Positions 2,192-10,072 of a DNA stretch of 10,083 bases are shown piece after piece. The number at the start of each line of letters is the position of its first letter. Within the stretch, counting starts at the first letter, position 1. Below the pieces are notes generated by a model. That model had not been told where the DNA came from and searched no databases. It saw nothing but the letters and a program-made list of their open reading frames with translations. The position numbers and the translations under genes were made by a program. Source of the stretch: Oscillospiraceae bacterium (GTDB taxonomy: Bacteria; Bacillota; Clostridia; Oscillospirales; Oscillospiraceae). The stretch is from assembly GCA_017936205.1 (NCBI GenBank), contig JAGBGB010000084.1, positions 1 to 10,083 of the forward strand. The letters are read 5' to 3'.

Positions 2192-2268
2192 TTTGAGTAT
2201 CGGGTTACCTCCATGATACACAAGGGTGAGTATACCATGGCAGTTCAAATATCGAAAGCACCTTCTCT

Positions 2269-2312
2269 GTAGGGCAAGATGACCCCATCTTGCCGTCCGC
2301 GAAGCGGCAGAC
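2269..2312 (+). repeat. REP-like element A1 (forward), left of RAYT-A
   Basis: The element starts with GTAG, followed by stem GGCAAGAT, loop GACCCC and stem ATCTTGCC (8 bp perfect). A second small hairpin follows, CCGC-GAA-GCGG. Its reverse complement recurs at 3051-3094 with 42 of 44 positions identical; the two differences are compensatory changes in the 8-bp stem. A leading GTAG tetranucleotide plus hairpin is the known signature of REP elements mobilised by RAYTs. Confidence 0.85.
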
Positions 2313-2328
2313 AGTACAAGTTATCGAG

Positions 2329-2398
2329 TTTGTGCTGACATGGTAGTTCCTGCAACGGCAAGCTGAGGTTAGCTTGCCCTACGGACGGCCAGCACAAA
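2329..2398 (-). repeat. REP-like element A2 (inverted) inside a longer stem, left of RAYT-A
   Basis: The core at 2356-2382, read on the - strand, is GTAG, GGCAAGCT, loop AACCTC, AGCTTGCC (8-bp perfect stem). It lies inside a longer inverted repeat: TTTGTGCTG (2329-2337) pairs with CAGCACAAA (2390-2398). With A1 it forms a head-to-head REP pair just upstream of RAYT-A, like the BIME arrangement known from enterobacteria and pseudomonads. Confidence 0.75.
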
Positions 2399-2419
2399 GA
2401 CGAAGGAGATACCTCGAAA

Positions 2420-2884
2420 ATGGATAATCCAAAACGGAAGAGAATAAGATTAACGAACTTTGATTATTCATCTCAGACAGCTTATTATTTAACCATATGC
2501 ACTAAAAACAGAACTCCGAGCTTGTCTCGTATCTGTGTAACCGAGGATCGAAGAATTGTCGTAGATCTATCCCCAAAGGGGCAAAAAGTACAAGAGTATA
2601 TTTTGGGAATACCTAAGCACTATACCGATTTTTCCCTCCTTTCATATATCATTATGCCGGATCACATTCATCTGATCGTTGGTATAGAACAGGGCGATAA
2701 ACCATCCTCTATTCCCAATGCGATTAAGGCATTCAAACGACTTACCACGAAGGAATTTGGAGAGCAAATATGGCAGGAGCGGTACTACGACCATGTTATT
2801 CGCAATGAGGCAGAACTACAAACCAAAATAGAATACATAGAAACAAATCCCTTGCGAATGTTGCTCAAGACAGGCTGCCTATGA
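2420..2884 (+). CDS. REP-associated tyrosine transposase (RAYT-A, Y1 HUH family)
   Basis: This 154-aa protein belongs to the Y1/IS200-like HUH single-strand nucleases of the RAYT type, which cut and rejoin single-stranded DNA at REP hairpins. The metal-binding H-x-H motif is MPDHIHL (H82 and H84). The likely catalytic tyrosine is Y123 in WQERYYDHVIRN (residues 118-129), matching the RAYT W-Q-x-x-x-Y-x-x-x-I/L-R motif. The N-terminal block RKRIRLTNFDYSS and the ETNP block near residue 142 are also typical. An AAGGAGA ribosome site at 2403-2409 supports the ATG at 2420. REP-like elements A1-A4 flank it on both sides. Codon use is more AT-rich than in fhs, with AGA, ATA and TTA codons, consistent with acquisition. 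It appears intact. Cutting of the flanking repeats is inference. Confidence 0.88.
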   Translation: MDNPKRKRIRLTNFDYSSQTAYYLTICTKNRTPSLSRICVTEDRRIVVDLSPKGQKVQEYILGIPKHYTDFSLLSYIIMPDHIHLIVGIEQGDKPSSIPNAIKAFKRLTTKEFGEQIWQERYYDHVIRNEAELQTKIEYIETNPLRMLLKTGCL

Positions 2885-2919
2885 TATCTATTGTTATTTT
2901 GAAAGCCAATGCATCAATT

Positions 2920-2945
2920 GTAGGGTAAGCTGACTCCGGTTTGCT
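2920..2945 (+). repeat. degenerate REP-like element A3 (forward), right of RAYT-A
   Basis: GTAG followed by GGTAAGCT, loop GACTCC and GGTTTGCT. It aligns with elements A1 and A4, but the stem has decayed and pairs poorly. A further remnant resembling the right half of the element, CAGCTTGGGCTAC, is at 3008-3020. The rest of the 303-nt gap before the DUF3786 gene holds no ORF I can support. Confidence 0.55.
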
Positions 2946-3050
2946 GATGTAGGTACTTTCGCAAGGAGTTAGCGGAGTATGATGAACAGGGCTTACGAGC
3001 GAGAAAACAGCTTGGGCTACGAGAGTGGGAAATCGATGATTGCCGGTTCT

Positions 3051-3094
3051 GTCTGCCGCTTCGCGGACGGCAAGCTGGGGTCAGCTTGCCCTAC
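3051..3094 (-). repeat. REP-like element A4 (inverted), right of RAYT-A
   Basis: Read on the - strand this is GTAG, GGCAAGCT, loop GACCCC, AGCTTGCC, then CCGC-GAA-GCGG. It is the near-perfect inverted partner of 2269-2312. Similarity continues weakly outward (AAATACC-GCACC here against AAATATCG-GCACC near 2247), so the outer boundary of the module may be slightly wider than 44 bp. Confidence 0.85.
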
Positions 3095-3187
3095 AGAGGG
3101 TGCGGTATTTCTACTGTAAGCTGTTGCGATAATCCAACCGCAAAGAACCATATATTTGAAAAACACTTAGAACGGAGCAATGATTTT

Positions 3188-3784
3188 ATGCAAGTTGAGA
3201 ATCACAAGGAAGAAGTTCCTTTTGCACATTATTGTGAGAAATTTCAGGCAGCGGATCCCGCTGAGATGGCACTGCGGAGCGGAGCCAAGTGGGACGGGGT
3301 AGCCTTTACTCTGACCCTGTTGGGAACGTCGTACACCATTACCCATCCCGAATACAGCATTTCTCCTGCGGTGGGAAGCCTGCCCCTGCAGACCTTCCTT
3401 CTGCGCTTCTTGCTGGAAGGCAAAAAGGGGAGCTTTTCTGCCAACTTTAAGACCTTCCGTGAAATGCCCTGGGGGGAGCTGTACATTCAGCCCTTTACCG
3501 GCCGTGTGCTGACCAGAGCAGCTTTTACCTTCGGCACCCGAATAGAGGCATTCCGTAAGGGTGCAGAGGCTCTGGGGGGCTTGCCTCTGAAGCATGGGGA
3601 TGCCGCCTATGAGTTTGAGCTGCTGGATCAGTACCGTTTGCGGCTGCTGGTCTGGGAAGGAGACGAGGAATTCCCTCCCAATGCCCAGTTACTGTATACC
3701 GATAACTTTGAGACCGGCTTCTCCGCAGAGGATCGGGTTGTAGCCGGTGACCTGCTGATCGGGGCAGTAAAGGCTGCTATGTAG
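3188..3784 (+). CDS. DUF3786 domain protein
   Basis: This 198-aa soluble protein carries recognisable DUF3786 blocks: KWDGVAFTLTLLGTSYTI near residues 32-49, an FREMPWGELYIQPF segment near residue 95, and LLVWEGDEEFPPNAQLLY near residues 155-172. The frame stays open to an ATG at 3086, but that would put the N-terminus inside REP element A4. The ATG at 3188, with CGGAG 10 nt upstream, gives a family-like length. The function of DUF3786 is unknown. As I recall, family members occur in anaerobes and can be linked to the Fe-S domain found in corrinoid Fe-S proteins. Its place between a RACo-like gene and fhs fits a role in corrinoid/C1 metabolism, but this is inference from context. No cysteine cluster for an Fe-S centre is present in this protein. 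Confidence 0.75.
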   Translation: MQVENHKEEVPFAHYCEKFQAADPAEMALRSGAKWDGVAFTLTLLGTSYTITHPEYSISPAVGSLPLQTFLLRFLLEGKKGSFSANFKTFREMPWGELYIQPFTGRVLTRAAFTFGTRIEAFRKGAEALGGLPLKHGDAAYEFELLDQYRLRLLVWEGDEEFPPNAQLLYTDNFETGFSAEDRVVAGDLLIGAVKAAM

Positions 3785-3838
3785 ATCATATAGATTGGAT
3801 CTATAGTTTAAAACTATGAATATTTCATTTATAACTTA

Positions 3839-3866
3839 TTGATTTTCCTTTTTTCCGTGATATAAT
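3839..3866 (+). promoter_or_regulatory. probable upstream promoter of fhs
   Basis: TTGATT (3839-3844) and TATAAT (3861-3866) are 16 nt apart, and a TG at 3858-3859 gives an extended -10. The start would be near 3873, giving a leader of about 76 nt. I see no conserved riboswitch structure in that leader. Confidence 0.55.
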
Positions 3867-3888
3867 GCTGATGTAATGAGGATAAGGA

Positions 3889-3917
3889 TTGACAAAAATT
3901 TTTCGTAATGTTATAAT
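3889..3917 (+). promoter_or_regulatory. full-consensus sigma-A promoter of fhs
   Basis: TTGACA (3889-3894), a 17-nt spacer and TATAAT (3912-3917) match the sigma-A consensus at every position. The start is expected near 3924, about 25 nt before the ATG. The leader holds only the AAGGAGGA ribosome site (3935-3942). A perfect promoter, a near-perfect ribosome site and strongly biased codons in fhs all point to high expression. Confidence 0.85.
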
Positions 3918-3948
3918 AATCGAGAGACAAAATTAAGGAGGATTACCT

Positions 3949-5760
3949 ATGGCAATCGAATTCGTAAACGGCAAGTACACCGACCCCGAAACCGGCCGCG
4001 TCACTCTGGATCCTACCGTCTATAAGGATTGGCAGATCGCAGAGGAAGCAGAGAAGACTCTGCCCCCCGTAGAAGAGTTCCGTGAGAAGCTGGGACTGCT
4101 CCCCGACGAGATCATCCCCTACGGCAAGACCCCCAAGCTGGACTTCATCAAGATCATGAACCGTCTGAAGGACAAGCCCGACGGCAAGTTCATCGAGGTT
4201 ACCGCTATTACCCCCACCCCCCTGGGCGAGGGTAAGTCCACCACTTCCCTTGGCCTGATTGAAGGTCTGGGCAAGCTGGGCAAGAATGTCGGCGGCTGCC
4301 TGCGTCAGCCCTCCGGCGGCCCCACCATGAATGTTAAGGGTACCGCAGCAGGCGGCGGCAACGCTCTGCTCATGCCCATGACTGAGTTCTCTCTGGGTCT
4401 CACCGGCGACATTAACGACATCATGAACGCTCATAACCTGGCTATGGTCGCTCTGAACGCCCGTATGCAGCATGAGCGCAACTACGACGACGAGCAGCTG
4501 GCAAAGCGTGGCCTGAAGCGTCTGGACATCGACCCCAAGCGTATCGAGATGGGCTGGGTTCTGGACTTCTGTGCACAGGGCCTGCGTAACATCGTCATGG
4601 GCATCGGCGGCACCAAGGACGGCTTCCTCATGGAATCCAAGTTCGGTATCGCTGTTGGCTCCGAGCTTATGGCTATCCTGTCTGTCGCTCGTGACCTGCA
4701 GGATCTGCGTGAGCGTATTGGCAAGATCGTTGTTGCTTACAGCCGCAGCGGCGAGCCTGTTACCACCGAGGATCTGGAAGTTGCCGGTGCAATGACCGCT
4801 TGGATGCGTAACACCATCAACCCCACTGTTTGCTACTCTGTTGAGCATCAGCCTGTTCTCATCCATGCAGGCCCCTTCGCGAACATTGCTATCGGTCAGT
4901 CTTCCGTTATCGGCGACCGTCTGGCGCTGAAGCTCTTCGACTATCATGTAACCGAGTCCGGCTTCGCAGCTGACATCGGCTTCGAGAAGTTCTGGAATGT
5001 TAAGTCCCGTCTGTCCGGCCTGACCCCCAATGTTTCCGTTCTGGTTGCTACCATCCGTGCACTGAAGATGCACGGCGGCGGTCCCGCTGTTGTTCCCGGC
5101 CGTCCCCTGCCCAAGGAGTACACCGAGGAGAATCTGGAGCTGCTGGAGAAGGGCTGCGACAACCTGTTCCACCATGTTGCTACCATCCTGAAGTCCGGTA
5201 TCGTTCCCGTAGTCTGCATCAACCAGTTCTACACTGACACCGAGGCTGAGATCGCTCTGATCCGTAAGCTGTGTGCTGAGCGTGGCGTTCGTTGCGCACT
5301 GTCCAACCACTGGAGATACGGCGGCGAAGGTGCTATCGAGCTGGCCGAGGCTGTTATCGATGCTTGCGAAGAGAAGAACGAGATCAAGTTCCTCTATGAC
5401 CTGGAGCTGCCCCTGCGTGAGCGCGTAGAGCGTATCGCTAAGGAAGTTTACGGTGCTGAGGGCGTTGACTGGGCACCTCTGGCTCTGGAGAAGGCAAAGC
5501 GCTTCGAGACCGATCCCAAGTACGCTGACTACTGCACCATGATGGTTAAGACCCACCTGTCCCTGAGCCATGAGCCCAGCTGGAAGGGTGTTCCCAAGGG
5601 CTGGAGACTGCCCATCCGTGACATTCTGGAGTACGGCGGCGCTAAGTTCCTGTGCCCCATGGCAGGTACCATCTCCATGATGCCCGGCACCGGCTCCGAT
5701 CCTGCATATCGCCGTATCGATGTTGACACCGAGACCGGCAAGGTTCGCGGCCTGTTCTAA
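3949..5760 (+). CDS. fhs: formate--tetrahydrofolate ligase, long divergent form
   Basis: This cytosolic enzyme makes 10-formyl-THF from formate, THF and ATP. It has 603 residues against about 556-560 in typical bacterial enzymes. The extra length is an N-terminal extension of about 25 residues plus insertions such as [16 protein letters not shown] (377-391), which resemble the synthetase domain of eukaryotic C1-THF synthase. The P-loop [12 protein letters not shown] is at 88-99 and family signature [12 protein letters not shown] at 366-377 is intact. The folate-stacking Phe and Trp are probably F427 and W455. The first family signature, normally GxKGGAAGGGY, reads [11 protein letters not shown] (128-138). 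TGDIH reads TGDIN (152-156), and the usual histidine of NIAHG is I315. Codon use is strongly biased. The start is fixed by AAGGAGGA 6 nt upstream. The family is certain; whether activity and substrate are unchanged is open. Confidence 0.95.
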
Positions 5761-5823
5761 TACTTATTAGAAATTTCCCGCAGAGCTTCGGCACGCCCCT
5801 CTGTGAGGATCTATGAAACCACC

Positions 5824-5858
5824 AAAGCTCCGGCGGCACCCCCGTCGGAGCTTTTCCT
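5824..5858 (+). terminator. intrinsic terminator after fhs
   Basis: AAAGCTCCG pairs with CGGAGCTTT. The inner GCGG/CCGT extends this to about 13 bp (one G-T pair) around a 5-nt loop, and the stem runs into TTTTCCTT. It lies 64 nt after the fhs stop. It should end most fhs transcripts before the DUF6440, RAYT-B and fchA genes. Confidence 0.85.
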
Positions 5859-5911
5859 TAAGGGCACTTCCCGAAAGGCCCGGATAGGAGTTTTAAGGAG
5901 GGCAATTTATT

Positions 5912-6103
5912 ATGTCAAAGGAAAAGCGATTTGTCCGCATTCACACAGACGGTGCTTTCTCCGGCAATGAGATCTGGGTAGACACCGTCACGGGAGTAAA
6001 CTACTTCTACCATATTGCCGGAAATGGTGGCGGTCTGACCGTTCTGCTGGACCGGGACGGCAAGCCCATCATCAGCCCTCTTCCCATAACCGAGGCAGAC
6101 TAA
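5912..6103 (+). CDS. DUF6440 family small protein
   Basis: This 63-aa protein matches the DUF6440 pattern: RFVRIHTDG followed by a strand, VDTVTGVNYFYH (residues 24-35), GGLTVLLD (about 40-47) and a GKPII end. The family consists of small, mostly beta proteins of unknown function common in Firmicutes. A strong AAGGAGGG ribosome site (5895-5902) lies 9 nt before the ATG. It has no membrane segment or signal peptide. It lies between the fhs terminator and a REP module that begins only 2 nt after its stop codon. No promoter of its own is obvious, so read-through from fhs is one possible source of its mRNA. Confidence 0.8.
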   Translation: MSKEKRFVRIHTDGAFSGNEIWVDTVTGVNYFYHIAGNGGGLTVLLDRDGKPIISPLPITEAD

Positions 6104-6105
6104 CT

Positions 6106-6221
6106 GTAGGGGCGATGCCGTGTCATCGCCCGTGGCAGTCCGATTCGGAACCAACTACGATTGAATGCAAAACGGTTGCAGATTGCGACCCCTTCGGGCG
6201 ATGACACAGCATCGCACCTAC
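6106..6221 (+). repeat. paired REP module B1 (BIME-like), upstream of RAYT-B
   Basis: The forward unit is GTAG (6106-6109), stem GGGCGATG (6110-6117), loop CCGTGT and stem CATCGCCC (6124-6131), a perfect 8-bp hairpin. The inverted unit at 6196-6221 reads, on the - strand, GTAG, GTGCGATG, loop CTGTGT, CATCGCCC, with one stem mismatch. The spacer carries small hairpins such as CCGA-T-TCGG and TGCAA/TTGCA. The whole 116 bp recurs directly at 6769-6941. It begins 2 nt after the DUF6440 stop codon. Confidence 0.85.
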
Positions 6222-6261
6222 AGATCTTGACCAATAACTTTGATTTTTGGAGATGAGATCC

Positions 6262-6741
6262 GTGGAACATCCGAGTAGAAAAAATCTTCGTCTGCCGAAT
6301 TACGACTATTCATCGAGTGGAGCGTATTATGTTACTATTTGTACACATAATCAGACGTGTCTGTTTGGCAAAGTAAATAAGGCTACGGGAACCACACTAT
6401 ACAATGAAGCTGGGAAAATGGTTTTGCGATGGCTTCACAGTATACCTAATAAGTATAGTAATGTTTCCTTGGACTGCTGTGTAGCACTACCGAATCACGT
6501 TCATCTGCTTCTATTCCTGCATGAGTCGGATCACTCCCTGGGTGAAATCATCAAATGGTTTAAGGCTCAGAGCACAAATGAATACATCAAAGGTGTAAAG
6601 CAGGGACGCTTCCCACCTTTTGACAAAGCCATTTGGCAACGAAACTATTATGAACGGATTGTTCGTTCCGAATTCGAAATGAATCAAATTCGGCAATATA
6701 TCACATATAATTCACTGAAATGGAATATGGTTCGGGAATAA
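6262..6741 (+). CDS. REP-associated tyrosine transposase (RAYT-B, Y1 HUH family)
   Basis: This 159-aa protein is a second RAYT, clearly different from RAYT-A. The metal-binding motif is LPNHVHLL (H79 and H81) and the likely catalytic tyrosine is Y130 in IWQRNYYERIVRS (124-136). I choose GTG 6262 as the start. GGAG (6249-6252) lies 9 nt upstream, and the resulting N-terminus MEHPSRKNLRL aligns residue for residue with RAYT-A (MDNPKRKRIRL). The in-frame ATG at 6253 would directly abut the GGAG. Compared with RAYT-A it has a longer segment between the two active-site motifs (GVKQGRFPPFDKAIW). It lies between two direct copies of REP module B and separates fhs from fchA. Codon use is AT-richer than in its metabolic neighbours. 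It appears intact. Confidence 0.87.
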   Translation: MEHPSRKNLRLPNYDYSSSGAYYVTICTHNQTCLFGKVNKATGTTLYNEAGKMVLRWLHSIPNKYSNVSLDCCVALPNHVHLLLFLHESDHSLGEIIKWFKAQSTNEYIKGVKQGRFPPFDKAIWQRNYYERIVRSEFEMNQIRQYITYNSLKWNMVRE

Positions 6742-6768
6742 ATCTTCCTATTTCCGTTCCACCTGACC

Positions 6769-6941
6769 GTAGGGGCGATGCTGTGTTTGGGCAGCCGTCG
6801 GCGAGGAACGAGCCTTACGGATGCGGCATGCCCCTTGCGGGTACATCGCCCGTGGCAGTCTGATTCGGAACTAACTACGGTTGTATGTAAATCGGTTGCA
6901 GATTGCGACCCCTTCGGGCGATGACACAGCATCGCCCCTAC
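6769..6941 (+). repeat. paired REP module B2 with a 57-bp insertion in one loop, downstream of RAYT-B
   Basis: This copy aligns with 6106-6221 over all 116 positions with 8 substitutions. The only length change is a 57-bp insertion at 6787-6843, placed exactly between loop CTGTGT (6781-6786) and right stem CATCGCCC (6844-6851). The inverted unit at 6916-6941 has a perfect stem: GGGCGATG, loop ACACAG, CATCGCCC, CTAC. The module ends 13 nt before the fchA ribosome site and lies in the region expected to hold the fchA leader. Confidence 0.85.
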
Positions 6942-8529: not shown

Positions 8530-8565
8530 CCGATGAATCAAGGGAATTTTCCGTTGATTCATCGG
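8530..8565 (+). other. long hairpin between folD and the DUF1576 gene
   Basis: CCGATGAATCAA pairs with TTGATTCATCGG (12 bp perfect) around a 12-nt loop that contains a further GGAA/TTCC match. There is no T-run downstream, so it is not a standard terminator. It lies in the 85-nt gap between folD and the next gene, ending 6-7 nt before the GAGGAGA ribosome site. It could be an mRNA processing or stability element setting different expression of the membrane protein, or an operator. Confidence 0.5.
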
Positions 8566-9909: not shown

Positions 9910-9946
9910 GATATCGGATAGGAAAGTATTTTATACTGAGTTTCTT

Positions 9947-10072
9947 TAGAAAGTAGACATTTTTAATGGCTACTTTCTATAGCCCGAAAGGGCGTAGAAA
10001 CTCGTACAAGACGCCTTATGTGCCCAGCAGGGCACATAAGGTCCAATTAAAAGTGTCCACTTTTAATTGGAC
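9947..10072. repeat. array of perfect hairpins, possible mobile-element end
   Basis: The 174 bases after the DUF1576 gene hold no supported ORF. They contain, in order: a 10-bp inverted repeat (TAGAAAGTAG at 9947-9956 with CTACTTTCTA at 9970-9979); GCCC-GAAA-GGGC (9982-9993); a 12-bp perfect stem CCTTATGTGCCC/GGGCACATAAGG with loop AGCA (10014-10041); and a 14-bp perfect stem GTCCAATTAAAAGT/ACTTTTAATTGGAC with loop GTCC (10041-10072). No T-run follows, so this is not one simple terminator. The dense perfect pairing resembles the end of an insertion sequence or a MITE-like unit continuing beyond the window. Identity unknown. Confidence 0.6.

Follow-up and report, generated by a model that had tools for sequence, protein, structure and literature searches.

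Two RAYT-type genes with apparently distinct GTAG hairpins in a folate gene cluster of a probable gut clostridium

Introduction

In a probable gut clostridium, a folate/one-carbon gene cluster contains two intact RAYT genes, RAYT-A (2420–2884) and RAYT-B (6247–6741), within the 10,083-nucleotide stretch of DNA that was analysed (the window). This raises the question of whether each gene has its own cognate REP hairpins. The original prediction was that the two RAYTs had diverged together with their REPs, their unrelated stems marking two systems and their geometry being kept in common. Sequence comparison supports two different RAYT-type proteins, each with what appears to be its own hairpin. 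They share 35% identity and are distant from each other in RAYT trees. The genome carries one copy of each.

Anatomy of the two units

The RAYT-A unit (2265–3098; 826 bp from outer GTAG to outer GTAG) consists of the gene boxed by two REP pairs, whose outermost arms form a 53-nt inverted repeat with 94% complementarity. Upstream lie A-type REPs at 2269–2294 on the forward strand (GTAG followed by GGCAAGATG-ACCC-CATCTTGCC) and at 2357–2382 on the reverse strand (GTAG, GGCAAGCT-AACCTC-AGCTTGCC). Downstream, a degenerate forward copy that has lost its folding (2920–2945) precedes a reverse copy at 3069–3094 (GTAG, GGCAAGCTG-ACCC-CAGCTTGCC). RAYT-A, a Y1 HuH transposase of 154 aa on the forward strand, contains H82-I-H84, Y139, and the residues W118, Q119, D124, H125, and R128, and its YIETNP matches the class 2 motif Y---NP. 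It has no insertion between αC and β4. Near full-length homologues elsewhere are 87, 61, and 54% identical.

The RAYT-B unit (6106–6941) measures 836 bp between outer GTAGs, has outer inverted repeats of 28 nt (96%), and is flanked by a DUF6440 gene and fchA. A forward REP at 6106–6131 (GTAG, GGGCGATG-CCGTGT-CATCGCCC) forms a 116-bp dimer with a reverse copy at 6196–6221 that has one stem mismatch. Beyond the gene, a forward REP at 6769–6850 is split between loop and 3' arm by a 56-nt forward-strand insert (6787–6842), which, taken with its edges, matches at 78% across 58 nt a region lying upstream of the gene for FTHFS in a related genome (G003). The outermost reverse REP lies at 6916–6941 (GTAG, GGGCGATG-CTGTGT-CATCGCCC). 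RAYT-B is a forward-strand Y1 HuH transposase of 164 aa read from TTG (ATG at 6253), with an HVH motif and YITYNS at the tyrosine, which departs from Y---NP. It carries an insertion of the TTNxYIxxVKxxxxPPFxKxIWQ type, here STNEYIKGVKQGRFPPFDKAIWQ. From the start of αC to the next strand it is about 11 residues longer than RAYT-A.

Both proteins have the HuH motif and catalytic tyrosine and exceed the PF01797 cut-off, and inverted GT(A/G)G palindromes delimit both genes, as in RAYTs in the sense of Nunvar 2010. The 80-bit cut-off of the NCBIfam equivalog NF047646 (REP_Tyr_transpos) is reached by neither (A 73.3, B 71.6), nor by a further protein of this genome, RAYT-C (71.5).

The predicted flanking of both genes by GTAG hairpins in forward/inverted pairs is borne out, with five perfect hairpins of GTAG, 8 bp, and a 6-nt loop in the window compared with none in 200 random sequences with its dinucleotide transitions. 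The A and B sets are alike in having three good units and one damaged unit each. Folding with DNA parameters rules out the common geometry. Of A's three good units, two form 9 bp with a 4-nt ACCC loop and the third forms 8 bp with 6 nt, whereas the three foldable B units all form 8 bp with a 6-nt loop and the mismatched one contains a bulge. A small secondary hairpin, expected throughout, takes the form of a 4-bp CCGC/GCGG stem in two of A's three good units, but the two arms of a B pair carry different ones.

REP families in the host genome

A search of the genome (2.46 Mb, 73% complete) with the foot and loop pattern of the B-type REP returns 96 sites, with none for the reversed control. Matching to the GATG form with up to one mismatch gives 17 sites, and 39 of the 40 B-type sites checked lie outside ORFs. 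B's hairpin is a genuine intergenic REP family, with the genome-wide copies and intergenic preference that the original prediction proposed to look for. Among the matches listed, this loop family has the stems GGGCGATG, GGGCGAAG, and GGAACGGC, and GATG and GAAG units are partners in two dimers. As stems differ within one loop family, stem sequence is ruled out as the mark of a cognate pair, and the unrelated stems of A and B no longer indicate two systems. Many GAAG sites lie close to a contig end (within ~100 bp), and REP repeats seem to break assemblies of clostridial gut-type genomes.

A's stem has three perfect sites, all at the RAYT-A locus, and one truncated copy on another contig (C127), the remaining four matches being these sites seen from the other strand, apart from one that is due to chance. 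It is present in no other genome among the matches listed for 119 relatives. As the REP flanking RAYT-A is not over-represented in this 73% complete genome, the gene is classed only as a REPtron-like relative of RAYTs that lacks a REP family in this genome. Confinement of the hairpins to these loci had been named in advance as evidence against cognate pairing, and for A this is what the genome contains. The idea of two diverged RAYTs with cognate REPs thus stands as to the different proteins, a hairpin for each, and a real intergenic family for B, but not as to any spread of A's stem.

We consider it probable that two REPtrons of different RAYT lineages were acquired independently in one C1/folate gene cluster, with the B-type seeding the CYRTGT family and A remaining separate. 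A single RAYT, either B or a lost relative, might instead serve all CYRTGT stem families, leaving RAYT-A as a functionless passenger. This appears rather unlikely. It would accommodate the mixed GATG/GAAG dimers and the restriction of A's stem to its own locus, but RAYT-A is intact, retains the expected catalytic and GTAG-contact residues, and has the near full-length homologues described above. Furthermore, among the matches listed, same-genus genomes such as G008 and G013 contain 9-bp ACCC-loop REPs with other stems. The first half of this alternative is compatible with two independently acquired REPtrons.

Loop, stem, and protein across RAYT relatives

B's loop, CYRTGT, is combined with many covarying stems, and RAYTs with this loop have in common the insertion that follows the DNA-binding helix and precedes the GTAG-contact strand. 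Loop and protein therefore track each other while stems drift, which suggests that the loop, not the stem, may tell which transposase owns which repeat. The original prediction had proposed comparing REP type with RAYT clade, and loop type does follow the RAYT tree, with 38 changes over 114 RAYT loci where shuffling the labels gives 84 on average, using loop classes defined after the data had been seen. The loci named are the 80 best among 467. The tree has 122 rows, of which eight have no GTAG hairpin within reach, giving the 114 loci. Beforehand, 18 rows were left out as duplicates (L002, L120), long distant Y1 proteins of 20–33 bits (L064, L074, L087, L088, L106, L112), IS200 type (L117), or truncated or broken (L119, L094, L100, L104, L107, L108, L109, L114, L162); L066 and L121 yielded no RAYT frame.

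The insertion, scored by pattern with L136 (missed) and L208 (false) set by hand, is associated with REP loops of at least 5 nt (Fisher p 3e-23), a value that overstates the independent evidence as only 3 changes of insertion state occur across the tree. Seven RAYTs have long loops without the insertion, including RAYT-C. RAYT-B itself has a long branch and falls outside the main CYRYGT group in a free quick tree. It is inside only in a constrained tree (19 rows, L118 left out), which has a log-likelihood higher by 71 (AU p 0.91).

About 100 of 116 classified RAYT frames (six of the 122 rows, without motif, being omitted) contain GTAG hairpins within the frame, although frames were taken stop to stop and a few such hairpins may precede the real start. 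The forward REP is before HuH and the inverted one between HuH and Y in 41 of the 116, and both are between HuH and Y in 25. Most related genes have such insertions, while none is found within RAYT-A, read from its ATG, or RAYT-B. External-only REPs occur in 5/9 genes of this genus, a count using the assignment by hand of RAYT-A and L073, first scored as preHuH on account of the stop-to-stop frames; it becomes 5/11 with the truncated rows L100 and L108, which have in-gene or near-gene REPs.

The REPs, for which the counts of each genome are complete, are present in all four genomes that encode a CYRYGT-type RAYT. The reverse does not hold, as 12 of the 16 genomes order-wide with at least two B-loop REPs have no insertion-type RAYT by score, with at most 8 candidates scored per genome (e.g., 8 of 34 in G202). 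When all candidates were scored in the 119 relatives, an insertion-type RAYT was found in 4 of the 12 genomes with at least two B-loop sites. REPs in genomes without the matching RAYT clade, the other result named in advance as telling against the pairing, are thus seen for B. Published work describes such orphaned REPs as frequent and explains them by loss of the RAYT (PMC3686654).

Origin of the two units

Under independent acquisition, each unit would be the gene of a RAYT, a TnpA-REP-like Y1 HuH nuclease, boxed by GTAG-hairpin dimers. By analogy with in vitro work on other RAYTs, the protein would bind its own hairpin on single-stranded (lagging-strand) DNA, read the GTAG foot and loop, and cut beside the foot with its tyrosine, after which the inverted dimer (REPIN) may be moved or copied. 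Either RAYT-B or a close relative that has since been lost, or is missing from the assembly, would have seeded the intergenic CYRTGT family, in which stems change in compensating pairs around a constant foot and loop. RAYT-A is of a separate lineage, and its hairpin, mostly 9 bp with 4 nt, has no spread family in this genome, which would make it a newcomer or one no longer amplifying. Counting against this proposal are the lack of over-representation of A's REP, B's YITYNS and long branch, and the 12/16 genomes without an insertion-type RAYT.

The RAYT-B unit is missing from the corresponding site in the sister genomes G008, G014, and G009, which we read as probable insertion rather than loss. 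This absence, and the 826–836 bp units with inverted ends, would also be expected of ordinary IS200/IS605-like insertion sequences with hairpin ends, the REPs being their decayed ends. Such an origin is improbable given that A and B are present in one copy each, that IS200 models score far below the RAYT model, and that PF01797 gives 138 bits for an IS200-type gene on contig C277 but 34–36 for A and B. In addition, the repeats are short GTAG-footed dimers without IS-length copies. Slightly less credible still are host regulatory elements (terminators or mRNA stabilisers) beside which the RAYTs merely landed, which would fit the intergenic placing and the conservation of stems through paired change, but not a GTAG foot and 6-nt loop kept while the stem changes, a loop that tracks RAYT lineage, or the hairpins inside most classified RAYT frames.

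Relation to known systems

Genomes with several RAYT/REP pairs are already established, and multiple REP families with repeat-specific REPtrons in one genome are described by Di Nocera 2013 (PMC3733652). The original prediction regarded two cognate pairs a few kb apart in a probable Clostridia genome as much less described; outside Clostridia, more than one cognate pair per genome is established (PMC3733652, PMC6006769). The GTAG families of Di Nocera 2013 share the tagged hairpins and head-head dimers, and its REPtrons in species without GTAG repeats are near the situation of RAYT-A; neither 'Firmicutes' nor 'Clostridi' appears in its main text. Among the matches listed, no paper on REP/RAYT systems of Clostridia was found in freely accessible text, which is weak evidence of absence.

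Judged by features only, A and B resemble TnpA-REP subclass 2.4/RAYT group 4 as described by Quentin 2018 (PMC6006769), in that the foot is GTAG, the base of the stem has three G-C pairs, and W, Q, and R are conserved close to the GTAG contact. However, the hallmark given there for subclass 2.4 is in-frame REPs in the RAYT gene, which most relatives of A and B have, while A and B have external REPs only, and RAYT-B has YITYNS in place of Y---NP. In-gene REPs are also described there as generally between HuH and Y, which differs from the 41/116 and 25/116 frames found here. E. coli TnpA-REP (PDB 4ER8) has the same fold and is the best sequence match among solved structures, but E. coli REPs are reported as bulged (Corneloup 2021) whereas the A and B REPs are perfect palindromes.

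The Stenotrophomonas and fluorescent Pseudomonas pairs of Nunvar 2010 (PMC2817692) and Nunvar 2013 (PMC3686654) provide parallels in RAYT-REP coevolution, differing REP classes for orthologous RAYTs, and REPs that outlast RAYT loss. These systems are gammaproteobacterial, and the present analysis adds a quantified loop versus stem contrast across RAYTs of many phyla, together with a feature of the protein that accompanies loop length. Further useful additions are the clostridial setting and REPs that are external instead of in-gene.

Significance

It is possible, though we hold it tentatively and slightly doubt it, that RAYTs choose repeats by the hairpin loop. The ~10-residue insertion, which extends both the DNA-binding helix and the segment leading to the GTAG-contact strand, would then go with loops of at least 5 nt, leaving the stem free for compensatory drift and allowing one RAYT to run several stem families. 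If so, RAYT-B with its GATG, GAAG, and perhaps AACGGC repeats would be a natural example of loop choice, and the neighbouring RAYT-A, which lacks the insertion and whose loop is mostly of 4 nt, would be a built-in contrast.

Discrimination of their own REPs by RAYTs is reported from in vitro tests on three gammaproteobacterial pairs (PMC8266576). Here, two intact RAYTs of different lineages lie a few kilobases apart with differing loop lengths, and the matching protein difference is seen in RAYTs of several phyla, so that the question of own-REP recognition becomes a small set of swap experiments. The locus also extends REP/RAYT biology to clostridial gut-type genomes.

Genomic setting and hairpins

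RAYT-A (2420-2884, plus strand) and RAYT-B (6247-6741, plus strand) lie on contig C184 of a 2.46 Mb draft genome (364 contigs, 72.5% complete). The gene order is AcsV/RACo-type corrinoid activator, an ORF without assigned function, RAYT-A, DUF3786, formate-THF ligase (FTHFS), DUF6440, RAYT-B, FTCD_C/FchA, FolD and DUF1576. FTHFS scores above its model cut-off and the activator 788 bits against an AcsV cut-off of 800, while the names FchA and FolD are based on Pfam or NCBIfam matches below cut-off. Among the best 80 of 467 loci, the closest named relatives of RAYT-B are from uncultured Ruminococcus, Clostridiales and Oscillospiraceae genomes, which makes a clostridial host probable.

The original prediction that GTAG hairpins box both genes was correct and useful. 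The window contains five perfect hairpins (8 bp, 6-nt loop), a form absent from 200 first-order Markov sequences, and a sixth with one mismatch. A looser search (up to one mismatch, loops of 3-12 nt) found six against 0.22 expected from 100 random sequences. Between outer GTAGs the A unit spans 826 bp and the B unit 836 bp. The shared geometry that had been proposed does not hold: folding prefers 9 bp with an ACCC loop in two of three good A units, versus 8 bp with a 6-nt loop in all three foldable B units, one with a bulge. A 56-nt insert (6787-6842) separates the loop of one B-type REP from its 3' arm. Together with its edges it shows 78% similarity, across 58 nt, with a region upstream of the FTHFS gene in the compared genome G003 (L229:6442-6499), and is thus perhaps another dispersed repeat. 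Perfect or near-perfect hairpins lacking GTAG and unrelated to REPs occur at 8530-8565 (17-nt arms, 2-nt gap) and close to the contig end at 9944-10072 (arms of 18 nt around a 3-nt gap and arms of 15 nt around a 2-nt gap).

Origin of the two units

The DUF6440 stop and fchA start are 864 nt apart in the window versus 16 nt in G008, whose FTHFS is 95% identical, and 2 nt in G014, and they overlap in G009. In G003, G010, G001, G006 and G012, fchA follows FTHFS within ~20 nt with no DUF6440 between. With tblastn, neither RAYT matched any of nine relatives' loci. Insertion in the window's lineage is the simplest reading for the B unit. Both neighbours of the A site are present in just one of the nine loci, that of G016, which lacks RAYT-A and the ORF preceding it and has an unrelated ATPase-like ORF instead.

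REP families in the genome

The A-stem pattern (up to three mismatches) has eight matches, of which six represent three sites at the A locus read on both strands; the others are a truncated copy on C127 and a chance match on C265. The predicted cognate pair for A stands half-way; its stem is confined to its own locus and the truncated copy. The B-stem pattern has 70 raw matches, 17 with at most one mismatch; the remainder are mostly the GGGCGAAG variant, and some are opposite-strand readings. The foot and loop pattern GTAGGG-N6-CYRTGT-N6-CC has 96 sites, with none for the reversed control. Among the matches listed, stems GGGCGATG, GGGCGAAG and GGAACGGC all fall under this one loop, so that stems do not mark distinct systems as had been supposed.

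Forty sites with at least 7/8 stem pairs were located in the window and 20 further stretches, and 39 lie outside ORFs of at least 120 aa although ORFs make up 84% of those stretches, which were picked for containing REPs, so that position rather than density is tested. The exception (6916-6941) is within an over-extended TTG start of fchA. The cognate interpretation for B stands. Adjacent inverted pairs number 18, with lengths of 114-116, 149-152 or 172-173 bp, and in two of them a GAAG unit partners a GATG unit. CT immediately precedes GTAG at 16/38 sites, which are partly non-independent through common longer flanks; two group-3 RAYTs cleave at CT, or at CT and CA (PMC8266576).

When all loci are pooled, the six free stem pairs are fully Watson-Crick in 99 of 113 distinct foot and loop sites, with 5/6 pairs in 10, 4/6 in three and 0/6 in one. 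The 5' arm is of 21 kinds, counting one-mismatch variants and singletons. A constant foot and loop with a variable stem is the outcome that would be expected of selection on a folded single strand.

Other repeats were also observed. GAAG dimers at L052, L054, L056 and L057 are embedded in a longer repeat, starting GTTATAACCTTT and ending AAAGGT or at the contig end, which resembles a MITE carrying a REPIN. A further family, GTAG with GGGCGCGC-ATT-GCGCGTCC, forms dimers of ~147 bp (e.g. L044:1424-1570, L046:11-156, L034:1254-1401). None of the genome's four detected Y1 genes is a matching RAYT; the RAYT locus L113 has exactly this stem and loop.

In-gene REPs

Of the 116 RAYT frames sorted by REP position, 41 place a forward REP ahead of HuH and an inverted one in the HuH-Y interval; in 25, both orientations fall within that interval, and seven have no REP. 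External-only REPs number six as scored, or eight once the start codons of RAYT-A and L073 are corrected. Five of the nine rows from the window's genus (RAYT-A, RAYT-B, L063, L073, L076) are external-only versus 3/107 others (Fisher 4e-5), a lead rather than a test, given that L073 is the sister of L076 and that two genus rows were removed earlier as truncated. In-gene REPs were previously reported for TnpA-REP subclass 2.4 (PMC6006769). Relatives' genes carry REPs at two sites around HuH. The stem is often shared by both sites of a gene yet differs from one gene to the next, a pattern suggestive of concerted change within the coding sequence. The genome's third RAYT, RAYT-C (L004:259-939, minus strand; contig C51, L004/L043), has four in-frame REP units upstream of HuH at 39-bp spacing, encoding a PVAADVPVRPPYA-like peptide, and two additional REPs downstream; the stem is CGGCGGAC (mismatch at the first pair) and the loop GTCCCT.

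Co-occurrence of RAYTs and REPs

An order-wide survey covered 395 genomes, scoring up to eight RAYT candidates each, and 30 listed loci were inspected. Six encode a RAYT with the RAYT-B insertion (TTNxYIxxVKxxxxPPFxKxIWQ type; 165-250 bits), with CYRYGT loops in G000 (the window's genome), G052, G110 and G373, CTTGT in G259, and no hairpin found at the G183 locus. At least two CYRTGT REPs occur in 4/4 CYRYGT-RAYT genomes versus 12/391 others (Fisher 1.8e-6), the 12 being judged to lack an insertion-type RAYT by score (131 bits at most, where there was any match, within the eight candidates); the inspected loci do not extend to G385, G166, G329, G377 and G410. When candidates from 119 relatives were scored fully, 12 genomes had at least two CYRTGT sites. 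Of these, G000, G052 and G110 carry CYRYGT RAYTs, the RAYT of G118 is of the insertion type with a TCNAT loop, and eight have no insertion-type RAYT among those found, including G042 without any RAYT match and G002 and G016 with broken or partial RAYTs.

The RAYT thus predicts the REPs, but the REPs often occur without it, and the expectation that REP type tracks RAYT is not supported in this direction. REPs surviving RAYT loss are described (PMC3686654); other possible causes are incomplete genomes or a second type of RAYT. CYRTGT REPs with the GGAACGNC stem were seen in G000, G003, G016, G108, G113, G377, G385 and G312, from several families of the order, and the insertion-type RAYT only in G000 among these.

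Loop classes and the RAYT-B insertion

NF047646, the REP_Tyr_transpos model, matches in 46/119 related genomes. After 18 rows were dropped, the alignment comprised 122 RAYTs of relatives and named genomes, and a GTAG hairpin lies within 400 nt of 114 of them. REP loop class, as defined by us post hoc with the data in view, follows the RAYT tree, with 38 changes versus a mean of 83.9 (minimum 77) over 200 label shuffles. RAYT pairs 0.5-0.8 apart (n=33) share loop class in 88% and the 7-nt stem in 36%, against backgrounds of 8.7% and 3.8%.

The insertion is present in 20/20 CYRYGT-loop RAYTs (19 by pattern, L136 by eye) and also in RAYTs whose loops are TCNAT, CTTGT or one of a few further types. 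Loops of at least 5 nt accompany 37/37 insertion rows with a hairpin versus 7/77 rows without the insertion. Constraining the 38 insertion rows to one clade is not rejected (AU p 0.987), with a likelihood above that of the free tree; that quick tree sets RAYT-B and L118 apart from the other insertion rows, leaving the placement of both unsure.

In structure models (pLDDT 89.1 for RAYT-B, 90.1 for RAYT-A), helix alphaC covers residues 91-111 and 97-113, and the next strand begins at residues 128 and 123, respectively, making RAYT-B ~11 residues longer there. Helix alpha3, taken to be the same helix, touches a REP base left unpaired in the E. coli complex; for group 3 it was proposed, as speculation, to read the loop (both Corneloup 2021). 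The RAYT-B insertion may read the REP loop. This kind of RAYT/REP system is already known, and the additions are its setting and the link between loop and insertion.
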